A stretch of DNA of 64,000 nt. Origin: Pseudobutyrivibrio ruminis AD2017 (lineage in GTDB: Bacteria > Bacillota > Clostridia > Lachnospirales > Lachnospiraceae). Numbering within the stretch: position 1 is the first letter of the stretch; each line of letters opens with the position of its first letter. The notes under the pieces are model-generated. The model worked only from the letters and a program-made list of their open reading frames with translations, had not been told where the DNA came from and ran no database searches. Below are positions 5,315 to 13,647 of the stretch, piece by piece. A program made the position numbers and the translations under genes. The stretch spans positions 62,001 through 126,000 of the forward strand of contig NZ_AUJQ01000003.1 in assembly GCF_000424305.1 (NCBI RefSeq), in the 5' to 3' direction.

Positions 5315-7762
5315 TTGAGAGATACTTTTAATGTGGTATTTATCAGATATCACTTAACCAAGAAAAATACATTATTGTTCCAGGGATTTTATCCATTCGA
5401 TAATCCTAAAGGCTACGAGCTTGTAGCAGAAATGAACGGACAGCCATACAAGATGGACATCACTATCAACGAAGGCAACGAGGTTCGTCGTCGCTACATT
5501 GCAGCTCACAAAAGCGTTTCCAAGGAATACGTTGGCGAGATAGAGCTTCCAGCAAACCTTAAGGAGGTTAAATCCCTTAAGCTTGTTTGCGTGCTAGGCG
5601 ACACAAAGAGCGTTGTCTACAAGGCTACAGGCCGAGACCTTGAAAAGCTTAAAAAAGAATATGAATACAATTTGGAGCGTTCTGCGGTTACAGACGACAA
5701 GATTCAAATCTTGGGCTGGGCCATCGGCAACGTGCCAGAGGAATTCCATTTATATGATGGCAACACAGAAATTCCAATTTCTGTTAAGCGTATGTTCAGA
5801 AAGGACGTTTACGGCGTTTATCCTGAGCTTACAGAAAAGTGCGATTCTGGTCTTGAGATTGTTTTTGACAAGGGCAACTACAAAAAGCTTCGCCTTACAA
5901 TCACTGCAAATGGTCAGGTTTACGATTGCAAGGTTGATACGGAGCACGTCCTTACTGGCGGCAATCTTCTTCCAAAGAAGAGCCTCTGGGAGCGCATCGA
6001 GCTTTACCGTCAGGACAACGGAATCGGCGCTACTATCAAGCATGCCATCGACAAGTTCAAGGATGCTGATGCACCAAAGTACACATACATGGATTTCCTT
6101 ACAAGCTTTGGTCCTACAGATGTAGAGCTTCAGCGCCAGAGAGATGAAAAGTTCGAATACAATCCAGTGATGAGTATTGTAATTCCACTTTATAAGACAC
6201 CAGAAAAATATCTGGTAGAGCTTATCGATTCAATCATCGCCCAGACATATCCTAATTGGGAGCTTTGCCTTGCAGATGGCAGCGGTGATGATTCAATTGG
6301 CAAGTTTATTGAGAAGAAATACCCTAAGGAAAGCAGAATCAAATACACATTGCTTTCAGATAACTTAGGTATTTCCGAAAACACTAATGCAGCCATTGCA
6401 CTTGCAACTGGTGATTACATCGTGCTTTCCGACCATGACGATACATTGGCTCCAAACGCTATGTACGAATGCGTTGCAGCTATCAATAAGGACCGCGAAA
6501 TCGATGTGCTTTACACAGACGAGGATAAGATTTCCATGGATTCCAAGGAATACTTTGAGCCAGTGTTCAAGCCAGATTTCAACTTGGATTTACTTTGTTC
6601 GGTTAATTACATCTGCCACTTATTTATTTTCAAGAAGGAATTATTTGAAAAGGTTGGCGGATTCAATAAGGAATATGATGGAGCACAGGATCACGATTTA
6701 ATTCTTCGTTACTGTGAGGCAGCTAAGAAGGTTCATCACGTTCCAAAGGCGCTCTATCACTGGCGTAGCCATGCAGCATCTACAGCCATGAGTGCAGAAA
6801 GCAAGCTTTACGCTTTCGATGCAGGAGCCAAGGCTGTTCAGGCTCACTACGACAGATTAGGCATTCCAGCTACAGTTGAGCAGGATACATTCTACGGATG
6901 CTACCGCACAACATACAACTGGGGCAAGGAGCCACTTGTTTCTATCATCATCCCTAACAAGGACCATACAGATGATTTGGACAAATGTATTAAATCAATC
7001 GATACAAAGAGCACATACAAGAATATTGAATATATCATTGTTGAGAACAATTCTACAGAGCCAGAAACCTTCGAATACTATAAGAGCATCGAAGGCAGAG
7101 ATGATGTAAAGATTGTTCGTTACGAGACTCCAGGCTTTAACTTCTCTGCAATCAACAACTGCGGAGCAAAGGTTGCCAAGGGAGAAATGTTCCTACTTTT
7201 AAATAACGATACAGAAATCATCAACGAAACCTGTATCAAGGAGATGGTTGATGTTTGCCTTCGTCCAGATGTTGGTATCTGCGGAGCGCTTTTATATTAT
7301 CCTGACAACACAGTGCAGCATGCAGGTGTTGTAATGGGAATCGGCGGCATCGCTGGCCACACCTTTGTTGGCCTCGAGCGAAGCGAGCCAGGCTATATGT
7401 TCAGAGCCGTAACTACTCAGGATTTGTCAGCAGTTACAGCCGCATGTCTTATGGTTAGACGCGATGTATTTGAAGAGGTTGGCGGCCTTACAGAAGACCT
7501 TGCAGTTGCATTCAACGATGTGGACTTCTGCATGAAGGTTCGCGACAAGGGATACCTTGTAGTCTACAATCCACACGCAGAGCTTTACCACTACGAATCA
7601 AAATCCCGTGGCTACGAAGACACAGGCGAAAAGGTTGCCCGCTTCAATTCAGAAGTAGAAAAGCTAGAAAAATACTGGCCAGACATCTTAGAAAAAGGCG
7701 ACCCATACTACAATCCAAATCTATCAATATTAGATGGCTGGTATCGCCTGAAGGAAGAGTAA
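5315..7762 (+). CDS. Two-domain family 2 glycosyltransferase
   Basis: The 815-residue protein carries an N-terminal beta-rich region of about 270 residues and then two GT2 (GT-A fold) domains. The first begins near residue 282 (SIVIPLYKTPEKYLVELIDS, with TDEDK as the metal-binding acidic motif). The second begins near residue 538 (SIIIPNKDHTDDL, with LNNDTEI). Such twin-domain enzymes usually add two sugars or alternate linkages on an undecaprenyl-linked glycan at the inner face of the membrane. The start is a TTG at 5315, two bases after the previous stop, with GGAAGG at 5300-5305; the next Met would remove conserved-looking N-terminal sequence. The C-terminal two thirds resemble the product at 17169-19019. 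Confidence 0.88.
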   Translation: MRDTFNVVFIRYHLTKKNTLLFQGFYPFDNPKGYELVAEMNGQPYKMDITINEGNEVRRRYIAAHKSVSKEYVGEIELPANLKEVKSLKLVCVLGDTKSVVYKATGRDLEKLKKEYEYNLERSAVTDDKIQILGWAIGNVPEEFHLYDGNTEIPISVKRMFRKDVYGVYPELTEKCDSGLEIVFDKGNYKKLRLTITANGQVYDCKVDTEHVLTGGNLLPKKSLWERIELYRQDNGIGATIKHAIDKFKDADAPKYTYMDFLTSFGPTDVELQRQRDEKFEYNPVMSIVIPLYKTPEKYLVELIDSIIAQTYPNWELCLADGSGDDSIGKFIEKKYPKESRIKYTLLSDNLGISENTNAAIALATGDYIVLSDHDDTLAPNAMYECVAAINKDREIDVLYTDEDKISMDSKEYFEPVFKPDFNLDLLCSVNYICHLFIFKKELFEKVGGFNKEYDGAQDHDLILRYCEAAKKVHHVPKALYHWRSHAASTAMSAESKLYAFDAGAKAVQAHYDRLGIPATVEQDTFYGCYRTTYNWGKEPLVSIIIPNKDHTDDLDKCIKSIDTKSTYKNIEYIIVENNSTEPETFEYYKSIEGRDDVKIVRYETPGFNFSAINNCGAKVAKGEMFLLLNNDTEIINETCIKEMVDVCLRPDVGICGALLYYPDNTVQHAGVVMGIGGIAGHTFVGLERSEPGYMFRAVTTQDLSAVTAACLMVRRDVFEEVGGLTEDLAVAFNDVDFCMKVRDKGYLVVYNPHAELYHYESKSRGYEDTGEKVARFNSEVEKLEKYWPDILEKGDPYYNPNLSILDGWYRLKEE

Positions 7763-7817
7763 ACGTAAAGTAACCAAAGGCTAATTTTATCGAACTGTAA
7801 TAGTATTTTATTTATAG

Positions 7818-7962
7818 ATGAGGACCTGAGCATAACCTAGGCAAGCGCGAGGAGGAGGGCCCCATGTAGTTAAGGAGGGACCCTTTAGGGAGGTTCCCTT
7901 GACTGCAATGGGAGGTGGCCTCCGGGAGCACGGAGTACTAGAGGACAGGTCCGGACTAGGAG
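7818..7962 (+). ncRNA. Structured 5' leader of ugd, riboswitch-like candidate
   Basis: This GC-rich stretch stands out between AT-rich flanks. A closing stem GGACCTG (7822-7828) pairs with CAGGTCC (7946-7952). Inside it, GG-GGGC plus CCCAT (7854-7865) can pair with ATGGG and GGCCTCC (7908-7923), and AGTTAAGG (7868-7875) pairs with CCTTGACT (7897-7904), capped by CCC-TTTA-GGG (7881-7890). The segment CCTAG (7836-7840) can pair either with CTAG at 7938-7941 or with CTAGG at 7956-7960, which overlaps the ribosome site AGGAG of ugd (7958-7962). That is the layout of a translational switch. I recognise no established riboswitch class. No ORF fits here. Ligand and regulation are inference. Confidence 0.6.
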
Positions 7963-7969
7963 TAAGAAA

Positions 7970-9214
7970 ATGAACAGAAAAATTGCAGTAGCCGGCACAG
8001 GCTACGTAGGACTTTCAATTGCTACACTTTTAGCACAGCACAACCACGTAGTAGCAGTAGATGTTATTCCAGAGAAAGTAGAACTAATCAATAATAAAAA
8101 GTCTCCAATCGTAGACGCAGAGATTGAAGATTATCTTGCAAACAAGGAGCTTGATCTTGTAGCTACACTTGATGGTGAGAATGCTTACAAGGATGCAGAA
8201 TTCGTTGTTATTGCAACACCTACAAACTATGATAGCTCAAAGGATTACTTTGATACATCAGCTGTAGAAGCAGTTATCGAGCTTGTACAGAAGGTTAATC
8301 CTGATGCATACATGGTAATTAAATCTACAATCCCTGTAGGTTACACAAAGAGAATCCGTGAGAAGATGGGTTCAAATAAGATCTTATTCAGCCCAGAATT
8401 CCTTCGTGAATCAAGAGCTCTTTATGATAATCTTTATCCAAGTCGTATCATCGTTGGTACAGATGAAAAGGATGAGGCTCTTACAAAGGCAGCTCATGAA
8501 TTTGCAGCACTTCTTCAGGAAGGCGCAATCAAAGAGGATATTGATACTCTTGTAATGGGATTCACAGAGGCAGAGGCAGTAAAGCTTTTTGCTAATACAT
8601 ATCTTGCACTTCGTGTCAGCTACTTCAACGAGCTTGATACTTATGCAGAGACAAAGGGCTTAGATACACAGGCAATTATCAAGGGTGTTTGCCTCGACCC
8701 ACGTATCTCAGACCAGTACAATAACCCATCATTTGGTTACGGCGGATACTGCCTACCAAAGGATACAAAGCAGTTGCTTGCAAACTACAATGATGTTCCA
8801 CAGGAGCTTATCCGTGCCATCGTTGAATCAAATAGAACACGTAAGGATTTTATCGCTGATCAGGTACTTAAGAAGGCTGGCTATTATGGCTACGGCGATT
8901 CTAATGAGTACAACAAGGATGCTGAAAAAGAAGTAACAATCGGTGTTTACAGACTTACAATGAAGTCTAATTCAGATAACTTCCGTCAGTCATCAATCCA
9001 GGGCGTAATGAAGCGTGTAAAGGCAAAGGGCGCTACAGTAATCATTTATGAGCCAACACTTGAGGATGGTACAACATTCTTCGGTTCACGCGTAGTAAAT
9101 GACCTTGGCAAGTTCAAGGCACTCAGCAACGCCATCATCGCCAACCGCTACAACTCATGCCTCGACGACGTCCGCGACAAGGTATACACCCGTGACGTCT
9201 TCGCCCGTGACTAA
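7970..9214 (+). CDS. ugd: UDP-glucose 6-dehydrogenase
   Basis: The 414-residue enzyme oxidises UDP-glucose to UDP-glucuronate with two NAD+, supplying uronic acid for surface glycans. It has the N-terminal nucleotide-binding motif GTGYVGLS (residues 9-16), the substrate motif SPEFLRES, and the catalytic cysteine motif [14 protein letters not shown]. It closely resembles the short Ugd type of E. coli. The N-terminal NAD domain, the central helix region and the C-terminal UDP-binding domain are all complete. The ATG at 7970 has AGGAG seven bases upstream, and that ribosome site is the one which could be paired in the leader RNA. A related UDP-sugar dehydrogenase specificity cannot be excluded. 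Confidence 0.93.
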
Positions 9215-12015: not shown

Positions 12016-12050
12016 CGTAGTGAAGCCGCGAACCAGATGTTTAGAATGAG

Positions 12051-12128
12051 CCTGTAGCTGTCAATGAATATATTACACAATGAGCCAATCTCGCGACGGT
12101 GTAATATATTTATTGACAGCGTAACAGG
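12051..12128. repeat. Long inverted repeat between convergent genes
   Basis: The arms at 12051-12078 and 12099-12128 are nearly complementary: CCTGT with ACAGG, then a 20-pair block containing CTGTCAAT and AATATATTACAC, with one mismatch and a small offset. The loop is 20 bases. It sits between the stops of the lipoprotein gene and the minus-strand membrane protein gene. No clear T-run follows, so it may be a bidirectional terminator, an RNA-stabilising hairpin or a small mobile-element relic. Confidence 0.75.
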
Positions 12129-12147
12129 CGGACTAACGTGTCTTGGA

Positions 12148-13647
12148 CTACGCTGCAAAGTGAAGCAAGAAAAATGGGAAATTACCATAGAAAAGTAGGA
12201 AGGCATATCCTAATCCAATGGCGTAAATCATTTGGTTGTAGAACATGCGCTTTCCAAAGGTGGCAAGTGACCCATTCACTGTGAGTTCTTCTGTCTCAGC
12301 ATTGAAGCCGTTTTCTACAAGCAGGCTGGCAAGAATGACAGCAAGGGCTAATGCTAAAACAGGAATAAATGGTAAATAATATCTAGAGGCGAATCCGCCT
12401 AAGTATCCACGGGTAATATAAGTTCCATAAGCACTCTTAAGCTGGTAGATAAATGTAAGGGCACATGATATCCATCCGGCCTGAAGAGGAAGAGCTAGTG
12501 AGCCAGCTTTCTTGTTTACCACTGGGATAAACAGTAGTACAGGAAGCACCCAAAGCAATTCAAATGGAATAGCAGTAAGGCTGTAGGTGAAGGTCTTCAT
12601 AAAACGATAAATAGATTCGATTCCAGACCAAGAAAGGAAGAATCGCTCAAAGTAATATGAAAGATATTCGCTAAAGGTGAAGCTAACACGCTCGGCCTTG
12701 CTAACATAATATATCGTATTTTCGAAGTAATCCTTGCTGCAGATAAGCTCCAAAGAAGGATGTATAGTTCCGTAACGCTGATAAACTAAAATGTAGTAAA
12801 CAGCAGCGATGACATAAACAGGGATGGAGATAAAAAACTCCTTGGCGATAAGCCCCTTTAGGCTGCGCTCTTTAATCATAGTAATAACAAGAACGATAAG
12901 TGCCATAAATATGCAAAGCATTGCAGTAGTAAGCTTTGTCAAAAGCGAAGCAGAAATGCCTGTGGCGATTAGCATGTAGGTGCCAAGGTTTCGTTTCTTT
13001 TCGCAAAATCTGATAAGACCAAGTATGCAGATGGTACCAGTAACAAGGGCAAGTGCATCGTTGGTAACAGCGCAAAGCTCATAAGAAAGCATTGGAATGC
13101 TTGTAATAGTAACGGCATATAAAAGATGTAACCAAGGACACTGCTTTGTTAGTCTGGAATAACCGATGTAAAGCATCAGACCAACGCCAATCATCGAAAT
13201 GGCAAGGCTGAAGTAGCGAAGCTGCATCTTTTGAATAGTAACAACAACATCTGATTCGGTAGGAGTAAAGCCACCGGCTAATCTCATAATGTGATAATAA
13301 AGAGGTGGGTGGCAAAGATAGTTAACCAATGATTCCTGATATTCATAGTTAGGCTCTGTAGACCACTTCATCATGACGTTGTTGAAAATATGCATGTCCT
13401 CAAAATGAGGAATAATTTCGCCCGTTTCATGGAGATAGTAGACATATGCAATGTGAGCAGATTCATCAGGAGATGAGTCTGGAACATAGTGTGCATAGAA
13501 CACGCCAATTGCAGCAGTGTAAATGAATATTATGACATACAGGCCGATAATAAATACCGGACGACCCTTTTTCTTTACACCAAAATAGAAGGAAGCTAAG
13601 GCTAAAATAAAAAATAAAACAATTAAAAGATATGCTAATGTTCTCAT
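12148..13647 (-). CDS. Polytopic membrane protein, GT-C glycosyltransferase-like
   Basis: The 499-residue protein has about ten to twelve hydrophobic segments. The first extracytoplasmic loop holds the acidic motif PDSSPDESAH, matching the D-E-x-x-H style active-site loop of GT-C enzymes that use polyprenyl-phosphate sugars. The general pattern resembles DUF2142 membrane proteins. It is the last gene of a minus-strand operon, nine bases after the flippase stop. A role in adding side sugars outside the membrane is inferred from fold type and context; no donor or acceptor can be named. Confidence 0.7.
   Translation of the reverse strand: MRTLAYLLIVLFFILALASFYFGVKKKGRPVFIIGLYVIIFIYTAAIGVFYAHYVPDSSPDESAHIAYVYYLHETGEIIPHFEDMHIFNNVMMKWSTEPNYEYQESLVNYLCHPPLYYHIMRLAGGFTPTESDVVVTIQKMQLRYFSLAISMIGVGLMLYIGYSRLTKQCPWLHLLYAVTITSIPMLSYELCAVTNDALALVTGTICILGLIRFCEKKRNLGTYMLIATGISASLLTKLTTAMLCIFMALIVLVITMIKERSLKGLIAKEFFISIPVYVIAAVYYILVYQRYGTIHPSLELICSKDYFENTIYYVSKAERVSFTFSEYLSYYFERFFLSWSGIESIYRFMKTFTYSLTAIPFELLWVLPVLLFIPVVNKKAGSLALPLQAGWISCALTFIYQLKSAYGTYITRGYLGGFASRYYLPFIPVLALALAVILASLLVENGFNAETEELTVNGSLATFGKRMFYNQMIYAIGLGYAFLLFYGNFPFFLLHFAA

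Follow-up and report, generated by a model that had tools for sequence, protein, structure and literature searches.

Modular structured repeats of Pseudobutyrivibrio gene leaders, apparently undescribed, with one copy before ugd

The block that precedes ugd in the window (the whole 64,000-nucleotide stretch of Pseudobutyrivibrio ruminis AD2017 DNA that was analysed) is one copy of a large, genus-restricted and apparently undescribed family of folded repeats. The elements recur at many loci, pair in the manner of RNA, change on both sides of their stems at orthologous sites, carry different cores at one and the same site and are unevenly placed relative to genes. We regard it as probable that they are modular structured non-coding repeats restricted to Pseudobutyrivibrio, located mostly in leaders and acting generically without a ligand, if they act at all.

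The element before ugd

The initial annotation described a GC-rich block in this leader, and the GC content indeed reaches 0.60 at 7850-7949. The seven-pair closing stem that it proposed, GGACCTG 7822-7828 with CAGGTCC 7946-7952, and the inner stems nested within it can be read from the sequence and recur in the predicted fold. The fold of the block was calculated at -57.5 kcal/mol (z -2.31) by structure prediction, and 5 of 200 shuffled sequences equalled or beat this value. The parts of the copy are the following:

7818..7962, plus strand: complete type A element, which begins with the 5' closing motif ATGAGG and runs to GGACTAGGAG at the ribosome site (sequence; copies elsewhere; covariance-model match at 7832-7942, 110.7 bits)
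7819..7822, plus strand: TGAG, the 5' half of the closing motif (consensus drawn from 41 sites of type A and 34 of type B)
7822..7828, plus strand: 5' arm of P1, GGACCTG, locus specific (sequence and fold; GGACATA/TATGTCC in the G018 ortholog)
7851..7855, plus strand: 5' arm of P3, GGAGG, pairing with 7919-7923 (two-sided changes in 102 distinct copies)
7862..7865, plus strand: 5' arm of P4, CCAT, pairing with ATGG 7908-7911 (purM alignment and 102-copy alignment)
7867..7905, plus strand: apical hairpin, TAGTTAAGG 7867-7875 with CCTTGACTG 7897-7905, the most variable part among copies (copy comparison)
7919..7923, plus strand: 3' arm of P3, CCTCC (two-sided changes in 102 distinct copies)
7946..7952, plus strand: 3' arm of P1, CAGGTCC (sequence, predicted fold and comparison with G018)
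7953..7958, plus strand: 3' half of the closing motif, GGACTA (consensus GCGGACTA)
7959..7962, plus strand: GGAG, probable Shine-Dalgarno sequence of ugd, unpaired in the predicted minimum-energy fold (sequence and fold)
7970..9214, plus strand: ugd, nucleotide sugar dehydrogenase (TIGR03026 above its cut-off; UDP-glucose 6-dehydrogenase model below its cut-off)

The view that the block is an unrecognised structured RNA in leader position was upheld by the covariation described below and by a search with Rfam 15, which gave no match at gathering score anywhere in the window; by E-value, only a weak match to mir-1803 fell on the 7818-7962 block. That view was to be given up if no homologues with compensatory changes could be found. 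The search was run, such homologues exist, and the claim survives it. A scan of this copy detected neither a terminator-like site on the plus strand nor a sigma-70-like site at 7600-8050 (chance expectation for the latter, 0.3), and no clear fixed -10 box was seen ahead of the element.

Copies, cores and pairing

Rather than a leader class of ugd, as had been suggested, the block proved to be a dispersed repeat. A BLAST search of its own genome returned 31 matches, 10 of which (the block itself included) had an E-value of 1.7e-25 or better. The cores of the 24 copies that were read share GGCAAGCGCGAG ... GGGAGCAYG, and two copies contain an extra hairpin module. Comparison of the flanks showed that the outer stems are locus specific; a duplex formed by the copy's own flanks was found for all 24, at -15 to -34 kcal/mol, figures that stand without a shuffled control. 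The covariance model R1, which defines the type A core, was built from 21 of these copies, the two with the extra hairpin and one divergent copy being excluded. It has at least 27 matches in this genome and at least 397 summed over 29 Pseudobutyrivibrio genomes, 27 of which are positive; the richest, G018, has at least 54, and these counts include some incomplete assemblies.

Many copies are flanked outside P1 by UUUAnAUGAGC and GCGGACUAA. A second core, type B, is often enclosed by this motif as well (UGAGC...GCGGACUAA), and some leaders carry type A in one genome and type B in another. Scanning for TGAG, a 7-bp stem and GGAYTA gave 29 sites, at least two of them in coding sequence, against none in the reversed sequence, and a looser scan gave 136 sites (41 type A, 34 type B and 61 others, many of them coding), with 32 hits in the control. 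By a simple pattern, both halves of the motif were recognised in 39 of 148 type A copies. Type B has a near-invariant GUAG within P1, inside the outer stem, which type A does not have. The type B model, R2, has 1,668 matches in 28 of the 29 Pseudobutyrivibrio genomes, with 65 in this genome and 137 in the richest (G003). One type B copy lies in this window; the minus-strand gene 12148-13647 has its stop codon 12 nt from it:

12047..12136, plus strand: type B element with closing motif TGAGCCTGTAG ... CGTAACAGGCGGACTAA, between convergent genes (R2, 53.3 bits; sequence; ORFs)

A third, longer core with conserved letters of its own was also noticed in a similar closing motif (L098 3524-3689, L116 6619-6785 and L091 5808-5973).

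R1, with stricter filters, matched 2 of 299 genomes of the family sample and R2 matched 2 of 397, all of them Pseudobutyrivibrio. Among the loci listed, every R1 match above 45 bits came from Pseudobutyrivibrio or from Butyrivibrio fibrisolvens 16/4 (L085), and the maximum in other groups was 20.1 bits, which we regard as chance. The same applies to two single one-mismatch hits of a 16-base pattern in 16 genomes from other families of the order; two pattern matches in viral contigs were not confirmed by the covariance model. Rfam searches yielded one match, to a separate element, in 12 loci whose leaders are of type B or related to it, and weak miRNA matches only in 14 further loci. The separate element is a TwoAYGGAY RNA (RF01731) situated downstream of the ugd 3' end in G011 (L191 1103-1261, plus strand, 49.7 bits at a cut-off of 43). 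Among the matches listed in the literature searched, which was mostly outside subscription journals, we found no published description of type A or type B repeats.

Pairing was assessed in orthologous leaders and across copies. Of the 15 purM leaders with type A, 13 were aligned (A3), one with an insertion and one cut off being left out; the structure is an RNAalifold prediction from the alignment itself. On these terms 95.9% of the cells were paired, a value reached by none of 500 shuffles and far from the 34-46% of slid controls; three of five measures were reached in 0 of 500 shuffles, and further pair types were not in excess over shuffles (350 of 500). All cells of the eight P1 pairs are paired in the 13 orthologs, and six of the eight pairs have two-sided changes. 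The P1 forms include GCTAGCAC/GTGCTAGC, GCTAACAC/GTGTTAGC and GCTTGTAC/GTACAAGC. The type B alignment, A5, contains 31 of the 58 sequences matched by a search pattern; many of those left out were nested duplicates. It has 94.7% of cells paired and two-sided change in 25 of 31 pairs (0 of 500 shuffles), with a structure derived from the same alignment; since the pattern demands CAAGC-like and GCTTG-like arms and a GAGAC...GTCGA-like tip, those pairs were partly chosen.

In 102 distinct type A copies, 97.8% of core cells were paired; this alignment was made by fitting to the model and is biased in its favour, and 37 of 500 shuffles had at least as many pairs changed on both sides. The ratio of G.U to A.C in the core was 102:1 in 60 sense copies and 39:0 in 25 antisense copies, an excess in both orientations as expected for RNA of the element strand. 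We also considered the same asymmetry in P1 as a mark of the transcribed strand. A first count gave 88:48 in sense and 23:43 in antisense copies, a stricter one 10:2 versus 3:2 (Fisher p 0.54), and this candidate was dropped.

Placement and exchange at leaders

For the analysis of placement, 148 of 156 distinct type A copies passed the score and length filters. The position of 114 could be assigned, the others overlapping ORF calls (21) or lying at edges (13). Between tandem genes there were 82 sense and 18 antisense copies (binomial p 6e-11, a value that overstates the strand bias because orthologous copies are not independent); 7 copies were convergent, 6 divergent, and for 1 the upstream gene is unknown. 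In 64 of 89 sense copies the distance from the end of the core to the start codon is 20-58 nt, and for 24 of 25 antisense copies a stop codon lies 10-40 nt from where the copy ends. The 109 distinct type B copies comprise 61 sense and 19 antisense copies between tandem genes, 8 convergent, 1 divergent, 7 in ORF calls and 13 at edges, with a median distance of 23 nt to the start codon and, for antisense copies, of 15 nt to the stop codon. At four loci (L019, L024, L331 and L344) a type A and a type B element were found divergent in one intergenic gap, their 3' ends towards both neighbours.

A second set, likewise of 148 type A copies, was used for the tests of downstream genes, core identity and Shine-Dalgarno pairing. 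The downstream proteins form 27 groups of two or more, a few of which are false ORFs beside antisense copies. The genes are unrelated; reading of the N-termini suggests purM, purE, icd, dnaE, leuS and hypA. The RlmI-like methyltransferase encoded after ugd is also among the downstream proteins, with matches below the cut-offs of the models. Two mutually exclusive partners had been proposed for CCTAG at 7836-7840, one of them masking the ribosome site. Both are present in this copy (ACTAG 7937-7941 and, beside the Shine-Dalgarno sequence, CTAGG 7956-7960), but the latter is not conserved. In the 91 of 148 copies with a predicted start codon 15-70 nt away, the segment could pair with the Shine-Dalgarno region (at least 5 bp) in 43%, while shuffled letters did so in 39%; for the internal partner the two values were 38% and 26%. 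The proposed masking thus finds no support in these sense copies.

Orthologous leaders were compared at ugd, purM, icd and dnaE, with core types judged by eye. Among 19 ugd loci with the same preceding gene (this one included), 5 carry type A and 4 have a different core inside the closing motif; in 4 there is another palindrome, and in 6 no element was recognised. In G018, the ugd leader has not only the different P1 given above (GGACATA/TATGTCC) but also a different apical hairpin. The other palindrome is CTTCCCC...GGGGAAGCTGTCAGCGAAGCTGACTGATGAGGG (L182, L184, L187 and L195), into which a further hairpin is inserted in L182 and L187. The purM leader, readable in 26 genomes (4 of 30 loci were unreadable), carries type A in 15, type B in 3 and neither in 8. 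At icd, type A occurs with four different P1 stems and type B copies are found as well; L379, L382 and L396 retain TAGCGGACTA only. Where relatives carry type B, the icd leader of G019 (L386) has nothing but the closing motif and a perfect hairpin, CCAGTAGCT-TGAT-AGCTACTGG.

Modules also nest, as a hairpin module TTGCTAAAGGTCC...GGACCTTTGCTTAGCAACGACCG was seen within the type A core (L015 1472-1617 and L018 1554-1699, minus strand). Core identity had a median of 0.72 in both comparisons made, 1,221 pairs of sites in the same genome and 164 pairs of orthologous sites from different genomes; the upper quartile was 0.88 for the orthologous sites and 0.81 within a genome. These values do not separate gene conversion from transposition.

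Explanations and related systems

According to the explanation that we favour, a copy would be built from a series of helices and conserved internal loops. The outermost part would often be the closing motif UGAGC / GCGGACUAA; next would come a locus-specific P1, enclosing one of two or more cores (A, B) that can replace one another and whose apical hairpin can also be swapped. Copies would spread and swap through an unseen copying process, the family being non-autonomous, and most would be retained in leaders, on the gene strand and shortly before the ribosome site. The leaders are presumably transcribed through the element, which may then work generically, its hairpin at the 5' end affecting mRNA stability or translation and being tolerated or mildly useful. 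No insertion event, target-site duplication or mobilising enzyme was seen, short of a systematic search for duplications or a partner IS. The pairing of P1 in all 13 purM sequences and the conservation of the closing motif speak for something more than neutral repeats. A role in leaders alone would not account for the antisense copies beside stop codons (25 of the 114 with an assigned position).

As is typical of interspersed structured repeats of the BOX or MITE kind, many similar copies were found at unrelated intergenic sites and have strong secondary structure. The nearest known kinds are BOX-type repeats and REPs. BOX, RUP and SPRITE of Streptococcus pneumoniae are described in PMC3049150 as short non-coding repeats, interspersed in the genome, whose RNA is predicted to be strongly structured; BOX is modular (boxA, boxB, boxC), and the repeats occur in 5' and 3' ends of transcripts and are thought to affect co-transcribed genes. 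The Pseudobutyrivibrio repeats are likewise short, interspersed, structured and modular. Unlike those elements as described there, they have a P1 that differs per locus and covaries at orthologous sites, two unrelated cores in one closing motif and a placement biased to sense leaders, and no related IS was met with for them, again short of a systematic search. TwoAYGGAY RNA (RF01731) is similarly structured, of unknown function and present in Pseudobutyrivibrio, but types A and B do not match RF01731.

The main rival to the generic-repeat explanation holds that a shared factor recognises the closing motif. In its broader form, which we hold to be rather unlikely, the elements are a genus-wide cis-regulatory RNA whose closing motif and core bind a shared protein or the ribosome, so that the leaders form a regulon and copies spread because regulation comes along with them. 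It would explain why the closing motif and P1 pairing are kept at purM, icd and dnaE orthologs while the letters of P1 change, why type A and type B have the closing motif in common, and why there is a sense bias with tight spacing to the start codon. It sits badly with the purM leaders that have neither core (8 of 26 readable), with the antisense type A copies, with the small share of type A copies in which both motif halves were recognised by the simple pattern, and with the lack of an evident function common to the genes. A specific version, in which one trans-acting factor reads UGAGC / GCGGACUAA before many ribosome sites and the cores A and B are mobile RNA modules that set the response of each leader, also seems unlikely to us.

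Template switching in DNA replication, by which one stem arm is copied onto the other, is a described process (PMC8794818) and might keep P1 paired in place of selection on the RNA. Since P1 of the purM leaders has one G.U among 103 cells, intermediates are rare and this explanation has to be taken into account; the hairpin in the icd leader of G019, which resembles a fold-back copy of the 5' arm, is a possible template-switch product. However, the unpaired closing motif is conserved too, and the core tolerates G.U but hardly A.C, and we consider it improbable that template switching is the main cause.

Still less likely are REP-like elements mobilised by a tyrosine (Y1) transposase. REPs, according to PMC3733652, are GTAG-tagged palindromes of 20-40 bp that are accompanied by RAYT transposases. 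The GUAG that adjoins a stem in type B recalls this tag, both kinds are high-copy intergenic hairpins, a Y1 match (PF01797) was found in 10 of the 29 genus genomes, and G003, the richest in type B, has three. On the other hand, no Y1 match was found in this genome (G000), for which reason RAYT mobilisation was set aside, nor in G018, the richest in type A; and the elements, with their locus-specific outer stems, are several times longer than the REPs of that account.

A riboswitch for UDP-sugars or another metabolite, with a switch that masks the ribosome site, is the least credible explanation: leader position, a complex covarying structure and the two possible partners of CCTAG in the ugd leader would suit it, but the genes downstream are unrelated and not of one pathway, genomes carry many copies, pairing with the Shine-Dalgarno region is at chance level, no conserved switch at the ribosome site was seen in 91 copies, and the type A core is missing or replaced at 14 of 19 ugd loci. 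The suggestion that the leader senses a sugar nucleotide for ugd is therefore unsupported, and such sensing is unlikely.

About 2,000 matches (at least 397 of type A and 1,668 of type B in 29 genomes) are placed where they could alter the expression of core genes. The purM and icd leaders, known from many species with several P1 stems and cores, offer a direct test of whether selection or template switching lies behind two-sided changes in RNA stems.
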